This document shows, in pieces, positions 10,371 through 31,079 of a stretch of DNA of 51,387 nucleotides. The notes under the pieces are model-generated. The model was not told the DNA's origin and made no database searches. It was given only the letters and a program-made list of their open reading frames with translations. The stretch is from contig SFCB01000080.1 in the NCBI GenBank assembly GCA_004367505.1, forward strand, positions 1-51,387. The letters are read 5' to 3'. The stretch comes from Chloroflexi bacterium OHK40 (GTDB lineage Bacteria > Chloroflexota > Chloroflexia > Chloroflexales > Chloroflexaceae). Position numbers and translations under genes: made by a program. Numbering within the stretch: position 1 is the stretch's first letter; the number at the start of each line of letters is the position of its first letter.

Positions 10371-10907
10371 ATGGACGTCTTGCTCTTCTTTGTGACGGCC
10401 GCCGTCGCGCTTGTGGGCGCGATCGCCATGCTCGTTAGCCGGAACGCCGTGCATAGCGCGCTCTTCCTGCTGCTCAACTTCGGCGCCATGGCGGTGCTCT
10501 ACCTGCTGCTTCAGTCGCCCTTCCTCTTCACCATTCAGCTCACCGTCTATGCCGGGGCGATCATGGTGTTGTTCCTCTTCGTGGTGATGTTGCTCGGCGC
10601 TGAGCAGGTGGAGGATACGCCCGACCGGATCGCCTGGCAGCGGCCCCTGGGCATCCTGCTGGGCGTCGGGCTGCTGGGGGTGGCGGCGGCGGCCTCGCTG
10701 CGCGGCGCGGCGGGCCAGCCGGCCCCTGGTGGCGAGGCGGCGGCGAGCTTCGGTAATCCCGCCGAGCTTGGCGCCCTGCTCTTCACCCGCTACTTGCTGC
10801 CCTTCGAGATCACCGGCGTGATCCTGCTCGTGGCCGTGGTGGGCGTGGTGGTGCTGAACCAGCGTGGGCGGCAGCAGGCTCCGGCAAAACCACCCGCTGG
10901 CGATTGA
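10371..10907 (+). CDS. nuoJ: NADH-quinone oxidoreductase subunit J
   Basis: NuoJ is a small membrane subunit between NuoH and NuoK/NuoN; one of its helices changes shape during turnover. The 178-residue product has five hydrophobic segments and the conserved YAGAIMVLFLFVVMLLG. Start ATG 10371 (MDVLLFF) is placed by family likeness; the open frame extends upstream to 9951 but that part only shadows nuoI. The 61-base gap after nuoI shows no strong Shine-Dalgarno, which leaves the start slightly uncertain. Confidence 0.92.
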   Translation: MDVLLFFVTAAVALVGAIAMLVSRNAVHSALFLLLNFGAMAVLYLLLQSPFLFTIQLTVYAGAIMVLFLFVVMLLGAEQVEDTPDRIAWQRPLGILLGVGLLGVAAAASLRGAAGQPAPGGEAAASFGNPAELGALLFTRYLLPFEITGVILLVAVVGVVVLNQRGRQQAPAKPPAGD

Positions 10908-20742: not shown

Positions 20743-22254
20743 TTACAGTCTGACGATCAACTCCATGAGCTTGCGGCGGTAGGTCCCACTGTTGAGCTTG
20801 TCCCAGCGGGCGGGCAACCCCGCCCGCAGCCGTTCCTGCTCCCGCTCACGGAGGGCCAGGTAGGCGGCGACGGCGGCCCCAGCCGCGCTATCACCAGCGT
20901 GGGGCGCGAGGATCTGCCGGGCTACGGCGATGTCGTTCAGGGCACCCAGGTAGTCCTGAAAGGCGACCAGAGGTGTCACCGCCTCATCGGTGCGGGGGCC
21001 GAGGGTCTCCGCGAACAGCTCAAGCACGTAGCGCATGCGCTTACCGTCGATGCGCATCGCGTGGAGCGCCTCCTCGTCCTGTGGCAGGCCACCGCGATCA
21101 TGGGCGCGCAGGGCCTCGTAGTGGCGCCAGAGTGTGCTGCCGCCAAGATCGCGCACGCGGGGGGTATCGTTCCACTCGGAGGGGTTATTCATCGTCGCGG
21201 CGAAGGCGCGTAGGAACGCGGCGTACTCATCGCTGTCGAAGAGTTCGATCAGGCCAGCGTGGGCCTTCTGGCGCTCGGCGGCCAGGTTGGCGCGCAGGGC
21301 CTCGAGCGAGGGCGCCAGCCCCTCCGGCAGCTCCGCCGCCCGGGCCAGCAGGTCGGCCAGGAGCACATCACGGTCGCGTACCGCGCCGGCGGCACGCGCC
21401 ACCCGACCAACGGCCTTCGCGTGGGCGCGTAGTTCGCCCGCCGGACCAACGGGGGCCAGCAGGCGGAGTGTGGCGCGCAGCCGCCGGGTGGCCACCCGCA
21501 GGGCGTGTACCGCCTCGATCTCCGCATCCGCGCGTACATCACGCTCAGCACTGCGCAGGCGGCGCAGGTGACGCCGCAGGAGTACCCGGCCGAGCTCGGC
21601 GAGGGGCGCCTCGGGTGTGGCGTACCAGGGCGCGAGCACGGTGGAGGCCGCCTCGTCGGGGGCTCCGCCGTCAACGGTCGGGGCGGCGTCTGGCGTTGCG
21701 CCATCCAGGGTGAGCCGCTCACCAAAGACCTTCCGCCACAGATCGGCCTTGGCCACTGCCCTGGCCCCATCCACGGCAGCATTGGGGCCGCTCAGGCGTA
21801 GCGCCAGGCCATCCTCGACGGGCTCCAGGGCCACGATCGTCGTGCTCTGGGACTGGCTGTAGTCGAGCCCATCGGCGACACGCAGGATGGCGGAGAGGGC
21901 CAGGGCCTGGGCCTGGCCCTTTTTGCCGAGGCTCAGGAAGGCGGGTTCGAGCTGGGGGCGCACCTTCTTGCGGTGAAAGGCCACCATGCAGGCCACGATC
22001 GCCTGCTCGCGGGGAGAGAGATCCTCGATCACGTGGCGCAGCACAATATCGCGGCCCACCAGGTGGTGCGCCGGCGGGTTCGTGGTGAGCCCCACGTTGT
22101 GCAGCAGCGCGCCCACCTCGATCAGGTGGCGGTGTTCCTGGGGGAGGCCATAGCGTTCGGCTACCGCGTCGAAAAGCGCCAGGGCGTGATCAGCCACCTG
22201 GCGCGCGTGGGCCAGATCAACCTGATACGCGTCGAGGATGTTGGTGAGCTTCAT
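20743..22254 (-). CDS. HD-domain and CHAD-domain fusion protein
   Basis: A 503-residue cytosolic protein with two parts. Residues about 1-150 resemble the HD-type C-terminal domain of exopolyphosphatase/GppA: HARQVADHALALFDAV, then LLHNVG and HHLVGRDIV, then LRVADGLDYSQSQ. The canonical HD pair reads H52-N53 here. Residues about 215-503 form a CHAD domain, an alpha-helical, basic, histidine-bearing fold known to bind polyphosphate: HALRVATRRLRATLRLL, then HAMRIDGKRMRYVLELF. The Ppx catalytic ATPase-fold part is absent. ATG 22254 follows GGAG; the open frame begins 7 codons earlier. It lies downstream of a CYTH gene, so a role in polyphosphate or triphosphate metabolism is likely but unproven. 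Confidence 0.82.
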   Translation of the reverse strand: MKLTNILDAYQVDLAHARQVADHALALFDAVAERYGLPQEHRHLIEVGALLHNVGLTTNPPAHHLVGRDIVLRHVIEDLSPREQAIVACMVAFHRKKVRPQLEPAFLSLGKKGQAQALALSAILRVADGLDYSQSQSTTIVALEPVEDGLALRLSGPNAAVDGARAVAKADLWRKVFGERLTLDGATPDAAPTVDGGAPDEAASTVLAPWYATPEAPLAELGRVLLRRHLRRLRSAERDVRADAEIEAVHALRVATRRLRATLRLLAPVGPAGELRAHAKAVGRVARAAGAVRDRDVLLADLLARAAELPEGLAPSLEALRANLAAERQKAHAGLIELFDSDEYAAFLRAFAATMNNPSEWNDTPRVRDLGGSTLWRHYEALRAHDRGGLPQDEEALHAMRIDGKRMRYVLELFAETLGPRTDEAVTPLVAFQDYLGALNDIAVARQILAPHAGDSAAGAAVAAYLALREREQERLRAGLPARWDKLNSGTYRRKLMELIVRL

Positions 22255-22311
22255 AGCTGCTCCAGTGAGCGACAATACGGGTGGAAACCGACGGACCCTG
22301 GCCCGGCGATC

Positions 22312-22938
22312 TCACGCGGGCGGGGCGGCAGTGTCGAGCAGCGCCAGGGCCCGCTGCAGCTTGGTACGCGGCTCGGGCCGAAGGGGGATGAGCGTGGCCA
22401 GGGCCGTGGCGAGGGCCTCGAGATCGGCGGCTTCGCCACCAGCGAGCAGCTCGATCTCCAGCTCGCTGAAGGGTTGCTCGCGCCCGCCGGCCCGAACGAC
22501 CCCCCGATCCAGACAGAGCTCGGCTACGCGCACGCCCCCCCGCTCTACATAGCGGATGTGCCGCTCTGTCTCCACCGCGACGTGGGAGCGCAAGGGCGCG
22601 CCACCCGTGAGCGCGAGGCCGAGCTCCCGGGCTTCGCCGGGGGGCCAGGCCTGTGGGTGCGGATCGTCGCCGGGGAACTCGAACTCGACGCGCTGGTGCA
22701 CTCCCGCCGGGGAGACCGTCGTTGGGCCTTTGAGCGTGACGAGCGAGCGTGGCCCCACCCGGCGCAGGCGTAGCCCGTGGCGCGCGGCGGCCAGGCGGCC
22801 ATCGACCGTGTCGAAGTAGGTGTTCTGCTGCAGCTCGGGCTCGGGGGCGGCAACGAGGGTGTAGGGGCCGAGGGAGCGCAGGCCGGCCAGGAGCGTGAGC
22901 TCGTCGGGGCCGACAGTGTACTTGGCCTCGATCTCCAT
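22312..22938 (-). CDS. CYTH domain protein (probable triphosphatase)
   Basis: A 208-residue CYTH (triphosphate tunnel metalloenzyme) protein. It opens with MEIEAKYTV, the ExExK signature. YFDTVDGRL, LRLRRVGP, TLKGPT, the acidic QRVEFEF and ELEIELLAGGE follow, and TKLQRAL closes it; these strands line the tunnel that binds triphosphate and metal. The family includes inorganic triphosphatases and thiamine triphosphatases; which substrate applies here cannot be read from sequence. No Shine-Dalgarno is visible. An extended -10-like TGGTATGCT ends exactly 7 nt before ATG 22938, which would fit a leaderless mRNA. An ATG at 22950 is an alternative. The HD-CHAD gene follows 57 bases later. Confidence 0.83.
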   Translation of the reverse strand: MEIEAKYTVGPDELTLLAGLRSLGPYTLVAAPEPELQQNTYFDTVDGRLAAARHGLRLRRVGPRSLVTLKGPTTVSPAGVHQRVEFEFPGDDPHPQAWPPGEARELGLALTGGAPLRSHVAVETERHIRYVERGGVRVAELCLDRGVVRAGGREQPFSELEIELLAGGEAADLEALATALATLIPLRPEPRTKLQRALALLDTAAPPA

Positions 22939-23019
22939 GATGCTTAGCATACCAGAATTTTCGAGACCCTGCGCAAGCGAGGGGTGTGCCGTGCCATGCA
23001 AAGTTCCACCTCCAGGCCC

Positions 23020-23048
23020 TTGCCGAAGGCGCGTTTCTGGAGTATAGT
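23020..23048 (+). promoter_or_regulatory. Sigma-70 promoter of the DHA2 efflux gene
   Basis: TTGCCG (23020-23025) and TATAGT (23043-23048) are separated by 17 bp, in the divergent gap between the CYTH gene and the MFS gene. The predicted start, near 23055, gives a leader of about 55 nt. Confidence 0.55.
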
Positions 23049-23108
23049 TTAGCTGGCTAATATTGGACCAGGCAGTCATTTCGCGCCGGCCGGCGTAAGG
23101 AGCACAGT

Positions 23109-24605
23109 GTGGCGCAGCGACGAGTCTTGCTCATCACCCTTGGCGTGATGATGAGCCTCTTTATGGCCTCTATGGAGAGTACCGTCATCGCGACAGCGAT
23201 GCCCACGATTGTGGGCCAGTTGGGTGGACTAGAGAGCTATAGCTGGGTCTTTGCGATCTATATGCTCACCTCTACCACGGTGGGTCCTATCTTCGGCAAG
23301 CTCTCCGATCTCTACGGGCGCCGCCCGGTCTATATGGTGGCGATCAGTATCTTCGCCATCGGCTCGCTGCTCTGTGGCCTGGCCACGACGATGCCGCAGC
23401 TGATCGCGGCGCGGGCCGTACAGGGCCTCGGTGCTGGTGGGCTGCTGCCGCTCGCCTTCATCATCGTGGGCGATATGTTCACCCTGGAGCAGCGCACACG
23501 GGTGCAAGGGCTCTTCTCGGGGGTCTGGGGGGTGAGCTCAGTGGCTGGCCCGCTGATCGGCGGATTCCTGGTGGACCGTGTCTCGTGGCACTGGGTCTTT
23601 CTGATCAACCTGCCGGCCGCGATCATCGCGGGGGCGCTCGTCTGGGTGGCCTGGAGCGGGGTGGCACGCCCGGCCGGCGCGCGCCCGGCGATCGACTACG
23701 CCGGCGCGGCGTTGCTGAGTATTGGCGTCGTTACCTTGCTGCTGGGCCTGAATGACCTGGGGGCGCCGGGGAGCTGGGGGCTGCTCGGGGTCGCGGCGGC
23801 GGCCCTGGCGGCGCTGCTGTGGGTGGAGCTCCGCGCGCCCTCGCCCATTCTGCCCGTGCGGCTCTTCCGCTGGCGTCTGTTTGCGGTGGCCTGCGCCCAC
23901 GGCGTGCTGGCGGGCTGGGTGCTCTTCGGCGGGATGTCGTATGTGCCGCTCTTCGTGCAGGGCGTGCTGCGCACCACCGCGACCGAGGCGGGCACGACGC
24001 TTACCCCGATGCTGCTGAGCTGGGTGGTGGCGAGTATCATCTCCAGTCGTCTGCTGCTCAAGGTGGGCTATCGCGCCCTGGTGATCAGCGGGATGGCCGT
24101 CTTCGTGGTAGGCGCCTTGATCATCGCCCGGGTGCGCCCCGATGTGAGCCTGGCCGAGCTGATGGTTGCCCTGGGCATGATGGGCTTCGGCATGGGTTTC
24201 TCCATCCCCGCCTTCCTGATCGCCGTTCAGAGCAGCGTGGAGAAGAGCAACCTGGGGGCGGCCACGGCCACCCTGCAGTTCTCGCGCACGATCGGCGGCA
24301 CCTTCGGCGTGGCCGTGCTCGGCGCGCTGCTCAGCGCGCGCCTCGCCGCCGCGCTGGCGGGCGCCGGACTGGACCCGGCGGCGGTACCGCTCGATGGGTT
24401 GCTAGGCGAGGGCGCGAGCGGGGCCGCGGTGCTCGGTGAGCAGGCCCGGATCGCCCTCGCAGCGGCCATGGCCGACATGTTCCGCTCCACGCTGGTGGTC
24501 TCGGTGCTGGCCTTCGCCGTCACGTTGCTGGCGCCACGGATGACCCTTGGCGCGCCCGCTGCCCGCCGCGAGCCCCAGGAGGAGCCGGTTCTGGCGGGGG
24601 ATTGA
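23109..24605 (+). CDS. MFS transporter, DHA2 (EmrB/QacA) family
   Basis: A 498-residue inner-membrane proton-driven exporter with about 14 membrane segments. It shows MESTVIATAMPTI in the first segment (the D/E-x-T-I/V-V-N/A-x-A-L/M-P motif of the family), motif A GKLSDLYGRRPVY and the long RAVQGLGAGGLLPLAF. GTG 23109 follows TAAGGAG at 6 nt. Substrates of this family are typically drugs, dyes or toxic metabolites; none can be assigned here. It stands alone and has its own promoter. Confidence 0.88.
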   Translation: MAQRRVLLITLGVMMSLFMASMESTVIATAMPTIVGQLGGLESYSWVFAIYMLTSTTVGPIFGKLSDLYGRRPVYMVAISIFAIGSLLCGLATTMPQLIAARAVQGLGAGGLLPLAFIIVGDMFTLEQRTRVQGLFSGVWGVSSVAGPLIGGFLVDRVSWHWVFLINLPAAIIAGALVWVAWSGVARPAGARPAIDYAGAALLSIGVVTLLLGLNDLGAPGSWGLLGVAAAALAALLWVELRAPSPILPVRLFRWRLFAVACAHGVLAGWVLFGGMSYVPLFVQGVLRTTATEAGTTLTPMLLSWVVASIISSRLLLKVGYRALVISGMAVFVVGALIIARVRPDVSLAELMVALGMMGFGMGFSIPAFLIAVQSSVEKSNLGAATATLQFSRTIGGTFGVAVLGALLSARLAAALAGAGLDPAAVPLDGLLGEGASGAAVLGEQARIALAAAMADMFRSTLVVSVLAFAVTLLAPRMTLGAPAARREPQEEPVLAGD

Positions 24606-24717
24606 CCGTCGCTCGGGTGCCGCTGATCCGGCCAGTTGCCGGATCGGCGGTGCCCTGCGCGCCGGGCGCGCTGGCCGACGCCAGCTACGCAGCACCTGCC
24701 TACGCGCAGCCTGCAAT

Positions 24718-24746
24718 TTGTCGCCGCCTACCCGATCGGGTACAAT
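24718..24746 (+). promoter_or_regulatory. Promoter of the hisS-like/hisG unit
   Basis: TTGTCG (24718-24723) and TACAAT (24741-24746) are separated by 17 bp and lie 35 bases before the GTG start of the HisRS-like gene. Confidence 0.55.
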
Positions 24747-24781
24747 GCCGCGCGCAGACGTGTTGCGTGAGGGGGCAGGCG

Positions 24782-26230
24782 GTGAGCGGAACGATCGAGG
24801 CGGTGCGCGGGATGCACGACGTGCTGCCCGCCGAGCAGCGGGGAGCGGCCCGGGCCCGCGCCGCGATCGAGGCGCAGCTGGAGGCCCACGGCTACGCCCC
24901 TGTGGACTTGCCGATCATCGAGCCACGGGAGCTGTACCTCCGCAAGCTGGGCGAAGAACTGGCGGGCAAAGTCTACGAGTTCAACTACGGGGGCCGTGAG
25001 CTGGCGCTGCGTCCGGAGTGGACGGCCTCGGTGCTACGGGCCTTTGTGGCCCATATGCAGGATCAGCCGCTGCCCCTGCGGCTCAGCTATGCCGGGCCTG
25101 TCTTTCGCTACGAGCGCCCCCAGCGCCTTACCTATCGCCAGTTCACCCAGGTGGGGGTAGAGATTGTGGGTGGCCCGGCCCCCCGCGCCGACGCGGAGGC
25201 CCTCGCCCTGGCCTGCGCCGGGCTGGACGCGGCGGAGGTGGCGGGCTATGTCGTGCGCGTGGGCCACGTTGGCCTGCTGCGCGAACTCCTCGGCCAGTTG
25301 GGGCTTGCCGAACGCACCCAGGGCGCCCTGGTATGGGGCATGGAGCGCATGCGCCAGGGAGGCGCCTCCGCCGTTCGCGAGCGCCTGCGTGAGGCGGCCG
25401 ATGATCCGCTGCCGGGGATCGAGTTGCCCCCTGGCCTGGATGAGGCGCAGGCCGGCGCCTGGTTGCTGCGCGCGCTCGACGCGATGCAGATCGAGCTGAA
25501 GACCGGCAGCCGTGACCCCGAGCAGGTGGTGGCGCGCCTGCTACGCAAGCTGCGCCGCCGCGATGAGCAGGCCGCCGTGGAGCGCGCCCTCAGCCTGCTA
25601 GAGCGGCTGGTGGCGCTGCGCGGCGCCCCTGCGGCCACCCTGCCGGCCGTGGAGGCCCTGCTGGACGAGGCGGGCCTGCACGCTGCTGCCCTGGGCGAGC
25701 TGCGCGCCATCCTCGGCCTGCTGGCGGCGCACGGATTGGACCCGGAGCGCGTCGAGATCGACTTCGGCCTCGGACGGGGCCTGCACTACTACACTGGCAT
25801 GATCTTCGAGATCGACGACGCCTCCGGCCTGCAGCTCTGCGGTGGCGGTCGCTACGACGATCTGGTAGCCGCCCTGGGCGGCCGTGGGAGCGTGCCCGCC
25901 GTGGGTTTCGCCTATGGCCTCGAACGGGTGGCTGCGGTCGCCCCACCTGCGCCTGCGCCCCGCCGTATCGTACTGGTGGCCCCGGTGTCCGATGACGACT
26001 ACACCTACGCGCTGGAGGTCGCCCGGTGCCTGCGGGCCCGTGGCCTGGCGGCCAGTGTCGATGTACGCGGGCGTCCGCTCGCGCGCAACCTCAGCGATGC
26101 CGCCCGCCGTGGTGCCGCCTTCGTCGCGATCGTTGGGGTGGAGGAGCGCCAGAGCCGCACGCTCGTCTGGCGCGATCTCGAGCGTCGCGATGAGCGCCGC
26201 CTGACGCTCGACGAGATAAACACTCTATGA
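24782..26230 (+). CDS. HisRS-family protein (HisZ-like or second histidyl-tRNA synthetase)
   Basis: A 482-residue class II histidyl-tRNA synthetase-like protein. Motif 1 region is GMHDVLPAEQRG; motif 2 is FRYERPQRLTYRQFTQVGVE; the histidine loop reads GRGLHYYTG near residue 330 and motif 3 is GFAYGLERVA. A C-terminal HisRS-type anticodon-binding fold is present (IVLVAPVSDDD onward). Two active-site motifs deviate from true HisRS: PEGT is PEWT (residues 78-81) and RGLDYY is RGLHYY. Such changes are usual in HisZ, the regulatory partner of HisG, but HisZ normally lacks the anticodon domain and pairs with short HisG. Linkage to hisG supports a histidine role. GTG 24782 follows GAGGGGG at 6 nt; the frame is open upstream to 24602, overlapping the MFS stop. 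Confidence 0.72.
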   Translation: MSGTIEAVRGMHDVLPAEQRGAARARAAIEAQLEAHGYAPVDLPIIEPRELYLRKLGEELAGKVYEFNYGGRELALRPEWTASVLRAFVAHMQDQPLPLRLSYAGPVFRYERPQRLTYRQFTQVGVEIVGGPAPRADAEALALACAGLDAAEVAGYVVRVGHVGLLRELLGQLGLAERTQGALVWGMERMRQGGASAVRERLREAADDPLPGIELPPGLDEAQAGAWLLRALDAMQIELKTGSRDPEQVVARLLRKLRRRDEQAAVERALSLLERLVALRGAPAATLPAVEALLDEAGLHAAALGELRAILGLLAAHGLDPERVEIDFGLGRGLHYYTGMIFEIDDASGLQLCGGGRYDDLVAALGGRGSVPAVGFAYGLERVAAVAPPAPAPRRIVLVAPVSDDDYTYALEVARCLRARGLAASVDVRGRPLARNLSDAARRGAAFVAIVGVEERQSRTLVWRDLERRDERRLTLDEINTL

Positions 26231-27027
26231 GCACCACCGTGACATGGGGCCGCTACGCCGAGCTGCGGCCCGATGAGCTCAGCGCCGTGCGTGAACATGC
26301 CCCCGTGGCCTACCTGCCCTGGGGCGGCCTCACCTGGCACGGGCCGCACCTCCCCCTTGGCCTCGATACGCTCATTGCGGAGGCCGTGGCCGAGCGGGTC
26401 GCCCGTCGCACCGGGGGGGCCATCCTCCCGCCGGTCAGCTGGCCCCTGCTCGGCAACGGGGATGAGTCGCTCGGCCTCCGCGCCGCCACGCTGCGCGCCC
26501 TGCTCGACGATGTCCTCGCCGCGATCGCGCGGGCCGGCTGGAAAGTGGCCGTGATCATCAGCGGCGCCTACTCGCCGCCCCACGACCTGCTGCTGATCCA
26601 GGCCGGGCGGAGCGCCATCGCCCGCCTTGGCCTGCTTGCCCTCGCCGTGCCCCCGCTTGGCCTTGTCGACGATGAGATGCTCGACCACGCGGCGCTCTGG
26701 GAGAGTTCGGTGCTCCTGGCGCTCCGCCCTGAGCTCGCCAACCTCGCAGCTCTCGGTGGTGGTCCGCTCATCCCGACCGAGAGCGGCGTGATTGGCCGCG
26801 ACCCGCGCGACACCGCCTCGCCCTCGCTCGGCATCAGCGCCTTGAACCTTGCCGCCGAGCGTATGGTGGTCGCTGTGCGCGACTTGCTCGAACGCCGTGA
26901 TCCGGCCCCACTGACCGCCCTCTACGCCCAGCGCGCCGAGCGCTACCAGCCCTTCCTTGCCCGCTACGGCAACGATCTGGAAGTGGCGGCGATGGCCTGG
27001 TGGCGGGAACAGCTGCACGGAGCGTAA
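26227..27027 (+). CDS. Creatininase-family protein with degraded metal site
   Basis: A 266-residue member of the creatininase/amidohydrolase family (creatininase, FAPy deformylase, mycofactocin MftE). It keeps the frame of the family: LPWGGLTWHGPHLPLGLDTL near residues 30-49 and HAALWESSVLLALRPEL later. Three of the five metal ligands known from creatininase look lost: the glutamate of E-Q-H-G is T36, and the N-G-H-Y-E-N motif reads S-G-A-Y-S-P (A114, S116). H38 and D47 remain. It overlaps the HisRS-like gene by 4 bases (ATGA) and ends 2 bases before hisG, so the three are surely co-transcribed. The function is unknown; a non-catalytic or altered enzyme tied to histidine synthesis is an inference. 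Confidence 0.7.
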   Translation: MSTTVTWGRYAELRPDELSAVREHAPVAYLPWGGLTWHGPHLPLGLDTLIAEAVAERVARRTGGAILPPVSWPLLGNGDESLGLRAATLRALLDDVLAAIARAGWKVAVIISGAYSPPHDLLLIQAGRSAIARLGLLALAVPPLGLVDDEMLDHAALWESSVLLALRPELANLAALGGGPLIPTESGVIGRDPRDTASPSLGISALNLAAERMVVAVRDLLERRDPAPLTALYAQRAERYQPFLARYGNDLEVAAMAWWREQLHGA

Positions 27028-27029
27028 CA

Positions 27030-28028
27030 ATGCTGCGCTTCGCTATCCCCTCCAAAGGCTCCGGCTACGATGCTTCCCTCGCCCTGCTTGAGAGCTGTGG
27101 CCTGCGAGTGGTGCGCGCCAACCCGCGCCAGTATACCGCGAGCCTGCGCGGCCTGCCCGACACCGAGGTGCTGCTCCACCGCCCCGCCGACATCGTTGAG
27201 AAAGTGGCTGCCGGTAGCATCGATATCGGCATCACTGGCTACGATCTGGTGGCCGAGCAGCGCGGCGATGATGAGAACCTGCTGGTGATCTTCGACGACC
27301 TGGGCTTCTGGCGCGTCGAGCTTGTCTTCGCTGTGCCCCAGGGCTGGATCGATGTGAGCAGCTGGGACGATCTGGCCGACCTGGCCGTGGAGTTGCGGGC
27401 CCAGGGCCGTCGTCTGCGGATCGCCACGAAGTATACCGAGACAGTGCGTCGCTTCTGCCGCACTCAGGGCATGAACGACTTCGAGCTGATCGACTCCCAG
27501 GGCTCCACTGAGGCCGCTCCGGGCCTGGGCTACGCCGACATTATTGCCGATATCACCGAGACGGGTACCGCTATTCGCGACAATAAGCTCAAGATCGTCG
27601 GCGGCCCCATCCTGCGCTCGCAAGCGGTGCTGGTGGGGAGCCGCCGCACCCTCCGCGATAATGCCCCGAAGCTGGCCCTGGTGCGCCAGTTGCTGGAGTT
27701 GGTGGAGGCCCGGCGCCGTGGCCGCCTCTTCTACTCGCTCACCGCCAACGTTGCTGGCGAAAGCGTGGAGACAGTTGGTCGCCGGGTGACGGCCCGCCTG
27801 GAGCTTGCTGGCCTCCAGGGTCCAACCATCGCCCCCGTCTGGAGCAAGTATGCCGCCGAGGGCGACCAGTGGTATGCCGTTAACGTGGTGGTGCCCCAGG
27901 AGGAGTTGCTGCCCGCCGTGGAGCACCTGCGCAACATCGGCGCCGTAAGTATTACCACCGTGCAGGTGCAGCACGTCTTTAAGGCCCAGAGCGACGCCTA
28001 TGCGCGCTTGCTCGCGGCGCTCGGCTAA
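27030..28028 (+). CDS. hisG: ATP phosphoribosyltransferase, long form
   Basis: HisG makes phosphoribosyl-ATP from ATP and PRPP, the first step of histidine biosynthesis, and is normally feedback-inhibited by histidine. The 332-residue product starts LRFAIPSKGSGYDASLALL and has IDIGITGYDLVAE. The PRPP-binding segment is near DSQGSTEAAPGLGYADIIAD. A C-terminal regulatory domain (from about residue 235; GPTIAPVWSKYA, WYAVNVVVPQEEL) marks the long, HisZ-independent form. ATG 27030 follows GGAG (about 27019); the open frame begins 10 codons earlier inside the preceding gene. It is the third gene of the unit and is followed by a strong hairpin. Confidence 0.93.
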   Translation: MLRFAIPSKGSGYDASLALLESCGLRVVRANPRQYTASLRGLPDTEVLLHRPADIVEKVAAGSIDIGITGYDLVAEQRGDDENLLVIFDDLGFWRVELVFAVPQGWIDVSSWDDLADLAVELRAQGRRLRIATKYTETVRRFCRTQGMNDFELIDSQGSTEAAPGLGYADIIADITETGTAIRDNKLKIVGGPILRSQAVLVGSRRTLRDNAPKLALVRQLLELVEARRRGRLFYSLTANVAGESVETVGRRVTARLELAGLQGPTIAPVWSKYAAEGDQWYAVNVVVPQEELLPAVEHLRNIGAVSITTVQVQHVFKAQSDAYARLLAALG

Positions 28029-28043
28029 GAGGGGCCAGGGGCA

Positions 28044-28076
28044 TACGGCACACCCGGGGTGTCCGGGTGTGCCGTA
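28044..28076 (+). terminator. Strong hairpin after hisG
   Basis: A perfect 14-bp stem (28044-28057 with 28063-28076; arms TACGGCACACCCGG and CCGGGTGTGCCGTA) closes a 5-base loop, 15 bases after the hisG stop. Only CCGTTCTG follows, so the T-tract is poor, but position and stability fit a terminator. Confidence 0.65.
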
Positions 28077-28124
28077 CCGTTCTGCTGCCAGTCCGCCCCT
28101 GCTTGCGCGGGAGTGGGCGGCACC

Positions 28125-28185
28125 GCCACCCCCTGGACGCCCGCCGGCGCGGGCGTGACAGGCCTTTGCCTGCGGGAGCCCGCGC
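28125..28185. repeat. Palindromic REP-like repeat, copy 1
   Basis: A 61-base unit present twice in the hisG-purM spacer. It begins GCCACCCCCTGGACGC, contains an 8-bp hairpin (ACGCCCGC with GCGGGCGT), then AGGC/GCCT and GCGG/CCGC mini-hairpins, and ends AGCCCGCGC. The chain of three small palindromes resembles REP/BIME-type extragenic elements. Confidence 0.7.
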
Positions 28186-28242
28186 AGATGGGCTTCGCCG
28201 ATCCGTAGCGGTGCGCTTGCGCGCCACGGCCCGTGGGGGTGT

Positions 28243-28303
28243 GCCACCCTCTGGACGCCCGCCGGCGCGGGGGTGACAGGCCTTTGCCTGCGGGAGCCCG
28301 CGC
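28243..28303. repeat. Palindromic REP-like repeat, copy 2
   Basis: This is the same orientation and length as the copy 118 bases upstream. It differs at two positions (a C/T near the start and a C/G in the first hairpin). The DNA between the copies has no gene. A 14-base piece of the same motif, in the opposite orientation, recurs at 45695-45708. Confidence 0.7.
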
Positions 28304-28322
28304 GGAAGGTGTTACACTGAGA

Positions 28323-28395
28323 GGCACGACGATGCTTGATTCGTGCCGCGTTCTGCTCGGTGCGAGCGAAGAATCTTCGCGCACTCATTTGTGAG
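28323..28395 (+). promoter_or_regulatory. Structured leader before purM
   Basis: Three successive stems can form: GGCACGA (28323-28329) with TCGTGCC (28341-28347); GTGC-GA-GCGAAG (28360-28371) with CTTCGC-GCAC (28375-28384), leaving a GA bulge; and a weak CTCA/TGAG stem after it. They end some 25 bases before the purM start. The leader does not match the purine-riboswitch core that I know. A regulatory role is speculative. Confidence 0.35.
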
Positions 28396-28421
28396 GCGCC
28401 TGCTGCCGAAAGGACCTCCGC

Positions 28422-29444
28422 ATGACGACATCCTACCGCGCCGCTGGTGTCGATATTGCCGCCGCTACCAGGGCCAAGGAGTTGATGGCCGAGGCCGTGC
28501 GATCGACCCACGGCCCCGCCGTGCTCGCCGGTATGGGCGCCTTCGGCGGCTGCTTCGATCTGGCCGCCGCAGGCGCCGCCGGCCAATCTGTTCTCGTAGC
28601 CTCTACCGACGGCGTTGGCACCAAGACGCTCGTGGCTGCCGCCGTTGGCCGCTACGATACCGTCGGCCAGGATCTCGTCAACCACTGTGTGAACGACATC
28701 CTCGTGCAGGGCGCCCGACCGCTCTTCTTTCTGGACTACGTGGCCGCGGCCCGGCTGGACCCGGACCAGATGGCCGCGATTGTGGGCGGGGTGGCCACCG
28801 CCTGCCGCGCGGTCGGCTGCGCCCTGCTCGGCGGCGAGACGGCTGAGATGCCCGATGTATACGCGCCGGGCGCCTTCGACCTTGCCGGCACGATTGTGGG
28901 GGTGGTGGAGCGGGATGCACTGCTTCCTCGCCCCGACATCGCTTCCGGCGATCTGATTATTGCCCTGCCATCGAGTGGGCTCCATACTAACGGCTACTCG
29001 CTGGCCCGCCGTATCGCCGGTCTGGGTACGGAGGGGGACCCCTACGCCGCACGGCCGGCCATCCTGGGTGGCCAGAGTGTGGGTGAGGCATTGCTGGCGG
29101 TGCATCGCTGTTATCTCCCGGAGGTGCTGGCCCTGCGCGCCGCTGTGCCGCTAAAGGGCCTCGCCCATATCACTGGCGGCGGGATCTTCGACAACCTGCC
29201 GCGGATCTTGCCGGCGGGCCTCGGCGCCACGATCGAGCGTGGGAGTTGGCCCATCCCCCCGATCTTCAGCTACCTCGTCGCTCGCGGGCAGCTTGCCGAG
29301 CAGGAGGCTTTCCACGCCCTGAACATGGGCCTGGGCATGCTGGCGGTGGTGCCCGCCGGCGCCGCCGGCGCCGCGCTGGACGCCGTGCCAGAGGCATACC
29401 GCGTCGGTGTTGTGACAGATGAACCGGGGGTGCGTCTGGTATGA
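28422..29444 (+). CDS. purM: Phosphoribosylformylglycinamidine cyclo-ligase (AIR synthetase)
   Basis: PurM closes the imidazole ring in purine biosynthesis: ATP plus FGAM gives AIR. The 340-residue product shows STDGVGTKTLVA (substrate/ATP site), NHCVNDILVQGARPLFFLDY, LLGGETAEMPDVY and ALPSSGLHTNGYSLARR. HITGGGIFDNLPRIL follows near the C-terminus. All are diagnostic of AIR synthetase. ATG 28422 follows AAAGGA at 28409-28414. Its stop overlaps the next gene by 4 bases. PurC lies two genes downstream, so this is a small purine cluster. Confidence 0.95.
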   Translation: MTTSYRAAGVDIAAATRAKELMAEAVRSTHGPAVLAGMGAFGGCFDLAAAGAAGQSVLVASTDGVGTKTLVAAAVGRYDTVGQDLVNHCVNDILVQGARPLFFLDYVAAARLDPDQMAAIVGGVATACRAVGCALLGGETAEMPDVYAPGAFDLAGTIVGVVERDALLPRPDIASGDLIIALPSSGLHTNGYSLARRIAGLGTEGDPYAARPAILGGQSVGEALLAVHRCYLPEVLALRAAVPLKGLAHITGGGIFDNLPRILPAGLGATIERGSWPIPPIFSYLVARGQLAEQEAFHALNMGLGMLAVVPAGAAGAALDAVPEAYRVGVVTDEPGVRLV

Positions 29445-30271
29445 GTGCCGCGATCAGCGTCTCGTCTGCCGCCGGGCTGTCGCTGGAGGCTCTGGCCGAC
29501 CTTTTCACCCGCTCCTTTGCCGAATATTACTATCCCGGGATCACCTCGGCCCACACGCTCGCGCGCCGTATCGCAGCGGAGCAGATTGATCTGCTGCGCT
29601 CACTCGTGCTCCGGGTGGATGGCGAGCCGGCTGGGGTGGCGCTCCTGGCCCGTCGTGGCGAACGGGCCTGGTGCGGCGGCTTCGGTATCACCCTGGCCTA
29701 CCGGGGACGCGGACTGGCACACCGCCTGGCCGACGCCATGGTCGCCGAGGCCCGGGAGTCGGGGGCCGAGCAGCTGACGCTTGAGGTGCTCACGCGCAAT
29801 GATCGGGCCCTGCGGGTGTACGAGCGGGCCGGTCTGCGCATCGCCCGGCGCCTGCTGATCGTCGTTTGGAACGCGGACGAGCGCCTGGCCCCCGGTGAGG
29901 CTCCAGCGCTCGAAGTGGCGGACCCGGCCGAGCTCGTGCTTGGTCACTTTGCCGCTATGCACCCCGCCCCGGCCGCCTGGCAGCGCGAGCCCGCCGCCCT
30001 GCTGGCGTTGCCGGAGCTGCGTGGCCTCGCGCTGCGTGAGGGCGGCGAGCTCGTGGCCTACGCGATCGTACAGGGCGAGGAGACGCTCCGCCTGCACGAT
30101 TTCGGAGCCCGCAATGTGGCGGCGGCCAGCCGGATGCTCGCCGCGCTGCAGGCACTCGCCACGAGCGTGACCAGCGTCAATGAGCCGGCAGAGAGCCCGC
30201 TCACGGCGGCCTTCCTGCGGGCGGGATTCCACGTGGCCGATGAGCAGTATGAGCTGGCGTCGGCGCTGTAA
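29441..30271 (+). CDS. GNAT-family N-acetyltransferase, tandem domains
   Basis: A 276-residue acetyltransferase. The N-terminal GNAT fold (residues about 5-145) has the acetyl-CoA motif ITLAYRGRGLAHRLADAMV and the typical LEVLTRNDRALRVYERAGL. The C-terminal half looks like a second, degenerate GNAT domain (LREGGELVAYAIVQGEE, then AFLRAGFHVADEQYEL). The ATG overlaps the purM stop (ATGA), so translation is coupled to purM. The substrate is unknown; linkage to purine genes may be only operon hitch-hiking. Confidence 0.8.
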   Translation: MSAAISVSSAAGLSLEALADLFTRSFAEYYYPGITSAHTLARRIAAEQIDLLRSLVLRVDGEPAGVALLARRGERAWCGGFGITLAYRGRGLAHRLADAMVAEARESGAEQLTLEVLTRNDRALRVYERAGLRIARRLLIVVWNADERLAPGEAPALEVADPAELVLGHFAAMHPAPAAWQREPAALLALPELRGLALREGGELVAYAIVQGEETLRLHDFGARNVAAASRMLAALQALATSVTSVNEPAESPLTAAFLRAGFHVADEQYELASAL

Positions 30272-30320
30272 GCGCTATGCAGGCCCGCTGGAGGAGCGCG
30301 CCATATCAACGGAGTTACCT

Positions 30321-31079
30321 ATGGAGCTCGGTCCACGCCTCACCGAAGGCAAAACCAAGATCATCTATGCCCATCCTGATGATCCATCACTGGCGCTGAT
30401 GGTCCACAAGGATGGCATTACGGCTGGCGACGGAGCCCGCCGCAGCGAGATTCCTGGCAAGGGCGTGCTGGCCGGGCGCACCACTGCCAACGTCTTCCGG
30501 CTGCTCGCACGTGCTGGCCTGGCGACCCACTTTATCGATGCGCCCGAGCCAACCCTTACCGTGGTGCGCCGCTGCACCATGTTGCCTCTCGAAGTGGTGA
30601 TCCGTCGCCTCGCGGCCGGCTCCTACCTGCGCCGCAATCCTGATTGTGCCGAGGGTGTGCGCTTTGAACCGCCCCTGGTGGAGTTCTTCCTCAAGGACGA
30701 CGCCGCCCACGACCCGCTGATCAGCCCCGTTGAGATCGCCGCCCGCAACCTCGCCACCGCCGCCGAGGTCGAGCAGATCACCAGCACGGCCCGCGTGGTG
30801 TTCGCGACACTCGAACGGGCCTGGGCCAGCCATGGGATCACGCTTGTCGATCTGAAGATCGAGTTCGGCCGGCTCCCCAGCGGCGAACTGGTGGTCGCCG
30901 ATGTGATTGATAACGACTCCTGGCGCATCTGGCCTGGCGGCGAGCGCGCCAGAATGCTCGACAAGCAGGTCTACCGCGATGCGACACTCGTCGATGAGGC
31001 GCTGCTGGCCGATGTGCTGGCCCGCTACGAGCTCGTAGCCCGGCTGACCGACGAGTTTGCCTCGGCGGACAGCGTGTAG
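30321..31079 (+). CDS. purC: Phosphoribosylaminoimidazole-succinocarboxamide synthase
   Basis: PurC joins aspartate to CAIR with ATP to give SAICAR in purine biosynthesis. The 252-residue product begins LTEGKTKIIYAHPDDPSLAL, the SAICAR synthetase ATP-binding start. It has VVIRRLAAGSYLRRNP, the aspartate/CAIR-binding segment VDLKIEFGRLPSGELVVADV, and IDNDSWRIWPGGE. MLDKQVYRD follows. ATG 30321 (MELGPRL) follows GGAG at 30311-30314; the frame is open further upstream but that part shadows the GNAT gene. It lies 49 bases after the GNAT gene. Confidence 0.95.
   Translation: MELGPRLTEGKTKIIYAHPDDPSLALMVHKDGITAGDGARRSEIPGKGVLAGRTTANVFRLLARAGLATHFIDAPEPTLTVVRRCTMLPLEVVIRRLAAGSYLRRNPDCAEGVRFEPPLVEFFLKDDAAHDPLISPVEIAARNLATAAEVEQITSTARVVFATLERAWASHGITLVDLKIEFGRLPSGELVVADVIDNDSWRIWPGGERARMLDKQVYRDATLVDEALLADVLARYELVARLTDEFASADSV

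Follow-up and report, generated by a model that had tools for sequence, protein, structure and literature searches.

The window analysed here, a stretch of 51,387 nucleotides from Chloroflexi bacterium OHK40 (contig SFCB01000080.1), carries three packed genes which are best explained as encoding the first, regulated step of histidine synthesis. They specify a HisRS-like protein best read as HisZ, a creatininase-fold protein referred to here as Crea, and a long-form HisG. HisZ and HisG are the known regulated entry enzyme of the pathway in an unusual, long-HisG layout, and Crea is the new part. We propose that Crea serves the HisZ-HisG enzyme as a non-catalytic accessory subunit, a reading to which we give about an even chance, because its place and its fold are kept, it has new invariant sites, and its catalytic site has decayed repeatedly. 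What the analysis shows is the order and joint occurrence of the genes, ligand losses that arose independently, purifying selection and fold; the physical binding, an effect on HisG and the sensing of histidine by this HisZ are inferred. Numbers preceded by G, C, L, g or f are our own designations for genomes, contigs, loci, genera and families.

The hisZ gene (24782..26230, + strand) begins with GTG and specifies 482 amino acids, comprising a HisRS catalytic-type domain, in which the middle insertion is enlarged, and a C-terminal anticodon-binding domain. Crea (26227..27027, +; 266 amino acids) has the creatininase fold with E36 changed to T and H114 to A, retains H38 and D47, and possesses extra C-terminal helices. 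HisG (27030..28028, +; 332 amino acids) consists of a catalytic and a C-terminal domain. The tight coupling reported in the preliminary description was confirmed on the sequence: a four-base ATGA overlap (26227..26230, +) couples the hisZ stop to the Crea start, and two bases (27028..27029, +) separate the Crea stop from the start of hisG. A scan of 22000-29500 for an RNA leader gave no Rfam match at the gathering threshold. Downstream of hisG (28422-31079) lie purM-like and purC-like genes with a GNAT-like gene between them, and the minus strand at 20743-23079 carries a CHAD-like (20743-22275) and a CYTH-like gene (22312-23079) side by side, all of these being named by eye. The CHAD/CYTH pair is often linked to polyphosphate.

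Crea matches PF02633 with 86.1 bits; against the creatininase equivalog model, TIGR04448, it scores 63.9 bits, below the cut-off of 235. Its structural model (pLDDT 94.9) aligns with creatininases at Z 22.6 and rmsd 2.4 over 213-214 residues (1j2t: 214 residues, model range 6-223), which places it in the creatininase fold. The extra helices, at about residues 227-264, lie beyond the part that aligns; that distant homologs lack this extension is taken from the profile search of 400 genomes and from the creatininase structure match. Orthologs, defined as matches of at least 142 bits among 82 genomes of the order Chloroflexales (the next match scored 51.7), were found in 50 genomes and are absent from 32. 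A scan of named relatives gave two loci, a true ortholog in Candidatus Viridilinea mediisalina (Chloroflexales; L038) and a remote creatininase. Outside the order, the best matches to the Crea profile among 400 Chloroflexota genomes reach 165 bits (families f18, f28 and f57); as candidate orthologs these were rejected, the best of the matches listed having neither HisZ nor HisG close by, within the flanking sequence covered, in the 18 non-order loci examined. One class-remote member of the Chloroflexota (G151) has tandem creatininase-family genes (L084:4999-6628) and, near 10738, a third match that is a fragment; hisG is not close to them.

Three metal ligands had been described as replaced in Crea, by T36, A114 and S116. 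In phmmer alignments to creatininase 1q3k and others these residues fall on the ligand positions which we take to be E34, H120 and E122, and the first two replacements stand. The third is uninformative: since Glu is absent from site 116 in all 50 orthologs, S116 does not point to decay in the Crea family, and only one (L096) of 18 distant PF02633 proteins with a residue there has Glu. The four ligands that could be tested are presumably E34, H36, D45 and H120 in creatininase numbering (E36, H38, D47 and H114 in Crea). With two of these lost (T36 and A114) the window protein does not have the metal site of a catalytic creatininase-type metalloenzyme and, as was first thought, is unlikely to be a normal creatininase; it retains H38, D47, H119, D120, H154 and E159. 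Among the 50 orthologs E36 is present in 28, H38 in 42, D47 in 37 and H114 in 31; all four are intact in 22, and one is lost in eight, two in ten, three in six and all four in four. The losses are derived, because more distant homologs (trimmed to the BLAST stretch in the ligand alignment) keep E36, H38 and D47 in 20/20 cases and H114 in all 18 with a residue at that site. The fewest changes required on a HisZ+HisG tree of 48 rows are six for E36, one for H38, five for D47, eight for H114 and none for the acidic residue at 120, the tree being a quick one with 22 of its 45 inner branches starred, L071 on a long branch, and L038 (a duplicate), L058 and L031 left out. Genus g4 has lost H38, D47 and H114 in 8/8 genomes, and E36 in four of them. 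Metal-site decay is limited to some Crea lineages and recurs on the tree.

Other positions have become fixed. Site 120 is Asp or Glu in 50/50 orthologs and in 0/16 of the distant homologs that have a residue at this position; D153 and W158 are invariant in the 50, and Y233 and R236, which belong to the C-terminal extension, occur in 49. Crea is a kept protein under purifying selection and not a pseudogene, since its median dN/dS ranges from 0.071 to 0.241 (g4 0.161, g16 0.203, g5 0.143, g34 0.071, g12 0.241, f3 0.148). The corresponding medians in these six groups are 0.057-0.168 for HisZ and 0.023-0.102 for HisG; Crea outpaces HisG in every group and HisZ in four of the six. Ratios were calculated by the Nei-Gojobori method with Jukes-Cantor correction, dropping saturated pairs (4/21 for HisZ and Crea in g4; 3/15 for HisG in g34) and leaving L058 out of g4 and L051 out of g34.

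Because 22 orthologs keep the four ligands, an enzyme role for Crea, ancestral or lineage-specific, is the main rival to our proposal. Crea would then be, or would until recently have been, a metal-dependent amidohydrolase acting on a histidine- or purine-linked metabolite, with a decaying or changed metal site in lineages of the window type. We regard this as unlikely. Although E159 is kept in 47/50 orthologs and H154 in 40/50, and the purM- and purC-like genes follow the trio in the window, the ligands have been lost at least 5-8 times per site with the gene retained, and purifying selection acts on Crea even in g4, where three of them are gone from every genome. Crea was also considered, and rejected, as a stand-in for the ring-opening step carried out by HisI: a HisI gene is present in 74/82 genomes, Crea-bearing (47/50) and Crea-less.

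The HisRS-like protein scores 306.7 bits with the hisZ model TIGR00443 (cut-off 271.65) and 280 bits with the hisS model TIGR00442, just under the cut-off of 286.75. It contains PF13393 and an anticodon-binding PF03129 domain (residues 397-479; 39.7 bits, cut-off 21). The possibility, raised at the outset, that this is the only hisS of the genome was not borne out: a second HisRS gene, on contig C241 (G000:C241), is a canonical hisS with 381.6 bits against the same hisS cut-off and 217.7 bits with the hisZ model, under its cut-off. The window gene thus has the setting of a hisZ, being encoded with hisG in a genome with a separate hisS. TIGR00443 also matches 29/29 rows of the HisZ alignment (A2) at E<=0.001. 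The preliminary description was correct as to the deviating motifs PEWT (residues 78-81) and RGLHYY (332-337) and the anticodon domain; its view of the protein as a new accessory factor gives way to the model scores, which best fit a HisZ, the established regulator of HisG, here with an anticodon domain retained.

The separation of the two models is not clean in every ortholog. L064 (298.1 bits) and L053 (288.2 bits) exceed the hisS cut-off and pass that of hisZ too, and the class-level outgroup row L127 scores 259.6 bits with hisZ, below the cut-off, and higher with hisS, again below the cut-off. The structural model (pLDDT 85.3) has HisZ 3od1 as its best fold match (Z 34.6, rmsd 3.2, 374 residues), in a tie with HisRS 3hrk and 1wu7 (Z 34.3). 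Residues R109, E111, Q120, E127, R332, Y336 and Y337, which, with R382, we take to be HisRS catalytic or histidine-binding residues, are invariant in 29/29 alignment rows, R382 being nearly so. These residues, the hisS scores, the fold matches and the retained anticodon domain would all suit a functional second histidyl-tRNA synthetase, or else a HisZ that has kept the ability to bind tRNA-His or to form histidyl-adenylate and thereby informs HisG of the charging state. We think this quite improbable in view of the separate canonical hisS, the presence of HisG in every one of 106 genomes with HisZ, and the occurrence of RPEW in 23/29 rows where HisRS presumably has RPEG. Furthermore, at least two separate PF13393 loci were counted by hand in 35 of the 49 genomes searched, many of these assemblies being incomplete. 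The other 14 comprise four with a HisZ-type match only (G026, G038, G062, G074), one with a single partial match (G063), seven with a single full-length match (G005, G039, G073, G223, G310, G341, G354), and two with no PF13393 match (G004, G048).

HisG of the window scores 173 bits with TIGR00070 and 55.5 bits with TIGR03455 (cut-off 40.05), and is made up of PF01634 and a C-terminal PF08029 domain (39.8 bits, cut-off 23.5). Its best PDB match is 6czl (203.4 bits), which we take to be a plant enzyme, and since PF01634 has a single match in the genome it is the only HisG. It was rightly named as the long form, with catalytic and C-terminal regulatory-type domains in one chain. The accompanying expectation that a long HisG should not need HisZ fails in the Chloroflexota. 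This HisG was detected in 143/400 genomes of the phylum (E<=1e-45) and this HisZ in 106/400 (E<=1e-50), and all 106 of the latter have the long HisG. HisZ lies upstream of HisG, on its strand and no more than 2.5 kb away, in 91/106, farther off on the same contig in five (once on the other strand) and on another contig in ten, the count being based on all 106 HisZ rows and 108 of the 143 HisG rows. HisZ and long HisG are an old pair in the Chloroflexota, departing from the textbook split of long HisG alone or short HisG with HisZ. No description of the long-HisG/HisZ pair was found in a literature search of open-licence papers. The 37/143 long-HisG genomes without HisZ at E<=1e-50, G093 and G086 among them, may be natural HisZ-free versions for comparison. 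One genome (G005, 93% complete) gave no ortholog of HisG, HisZ or Crea and contains hisS and HisI; the three genes seem to have been lost together. Another (G004, 85% complete) gave no match for HisG, PF13393, Crea or HisI.

Crea appears to have been inserted into the older hisZ-hisG pair, in this order only, since the pair occurs without Crea in G038, G041 and G050 and in 9/9 class-level genomes of f5, the last by coordinates, with part of the 12 loci read. HisZ-HisG genomes lacking Crea exist within the order as well (f2, g32 and others), and Crea is therefore dispensable for the pair. The position it occupies is well conserved: 41/50 genomes (the window added by hand) have HisZ upstream and HisG downstream, each no more than 2 kb away; taken singly, HisZ is that close in 45/50 and HisG in 45/50. 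In four of the nine exceptions a contig end lies no more than 250 bases from Crea, on the side that lacks the partner (G002, G020, G021, G030). The other five are real: HisZ-Crea is kept with HisG elsewhere in G031 and G040; Crea-HisG is kept in G022, with HisZ on another contig, and in G023, with no HisZ in the 4.1 kb upstream; and in G018 Crea is on one contig and HisZ-HisG on another. Random neighbours, which would have told against a functional unit, were not seen in the relatives. Genus g34 and G056 have a PanE/ApbA-type gene (ketopantoate reductase family) between hisZ and Crea (L042:4230-5198, from a domain search of L042; L050:5807-6733 and L078:6056-7000, by eye). It is very unlikely that Crea simply travels with the operon and does something unrelated: its absence from 32 of the 82 genomes at ortholog level, its separation in G018 and the interposed PanE/ApbA-type gene, which has no obvious relation to histidine, would fit such a role, whereas both neighbours are kept in 41/50 genomes across families f1, f3 and f4 at Crea identities down to 38%, and a fast-decaying active site within a kept gene order favours a context-bound role.

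The suggestion that the trio represents a new regulatory or accessory role holds in part. The unit is conserved and its HisRS-like member is the known HisZ, so that the new element is Crea, for which gene order and selection suggest a role in histidine synthesis. In the accessory subunit reading, HisZ partners the long HisG and Crea, encoded between them in one order, would bind the HisZ-HisG assembly, either stabilising it or tuning its response to histidine. Given a structural task, Crea would have been free to lose its old metal site repeatedly and still keep the fold, the invariant acidic residue at 120 and the C-terminal extension. Counting against the subunit reading are the 22/50 orthologs with four ligands, where an enzyme role is a possibility, the HisZ-HisG genomes without Crea, the separated loci (G018, G031, G040, G022, G023), and the faster evolution of Crea than of HisG. 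We also put forward, more tentatively, a specific three-protein ATP phosphoribosyltransferase, consisting of long HisG, anticodon-domain HisZ and a repurposed, metal-free creatininase-fold Crea, in which HisZ might sense histidine or the charging of tRNA-His and Crea might couple HisZ to a HisG already equipped with a regulatory domain. Our literature search, which covered mainly open-licence papers, found no paper on creatininase together with Chloroflexus, and none of the matches listed combined creatininase or creatinine amidohydrolase with histidine-synthesis terms.

ATP phosphoribosyltransferase is a model for allostery with two textbook layouts. If the accessory subunit reading is true, a phylum with long HisG and HisZ, and an order adding a former metalloenzyme, would represent a third, and would offer a case in which the change from enzyme to structural partner can be dated. 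Versions of Crea at all stages, intact, half-decayed and fully decayed, exist today, so that this change can be followed, and it can be tested by swapping versions.

In published descriptions, HisZ is a HisRS paralog without catalytic activity, which activates HisG and brings about its inhibition by histidine (PMC10795190, PMC9437257), and is the partner of the short form, the long HisG working alone as a homohexamer (PMC10795190). The short-form HisZ-HisG(S) systems of Lactococcus, Psychrobacter and Acinetobacter resemble the present one in having a HisRS paralog encoded beside HisG. They differ in that the HisG here is of the long form and carries a C-terminal regulatory-type domain of its own, so that HisZ is here not the partner of a short form, and in that the window HisZ keeps an anticodon domain and a creatininase-fold gene has been added. 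With long-form HisG(L) the window protein shares the catalytic and C-terminal domains in one chain and its best PDB match; unlike HisG(L) acting alone, as described in PMC10795190, it has HisZ alongside in 106 of the 143 Chloroflexota genomes that gave this HisG at the cut-offs applied. Finally, Crea has in common with creatininase and the PF02633 amidohydrolases its fold and its PF02633 match, and departs from creatininase in its TIGR04448 score (63.9 against 235), its ligand losses, its C-terminal extension and its gene context.
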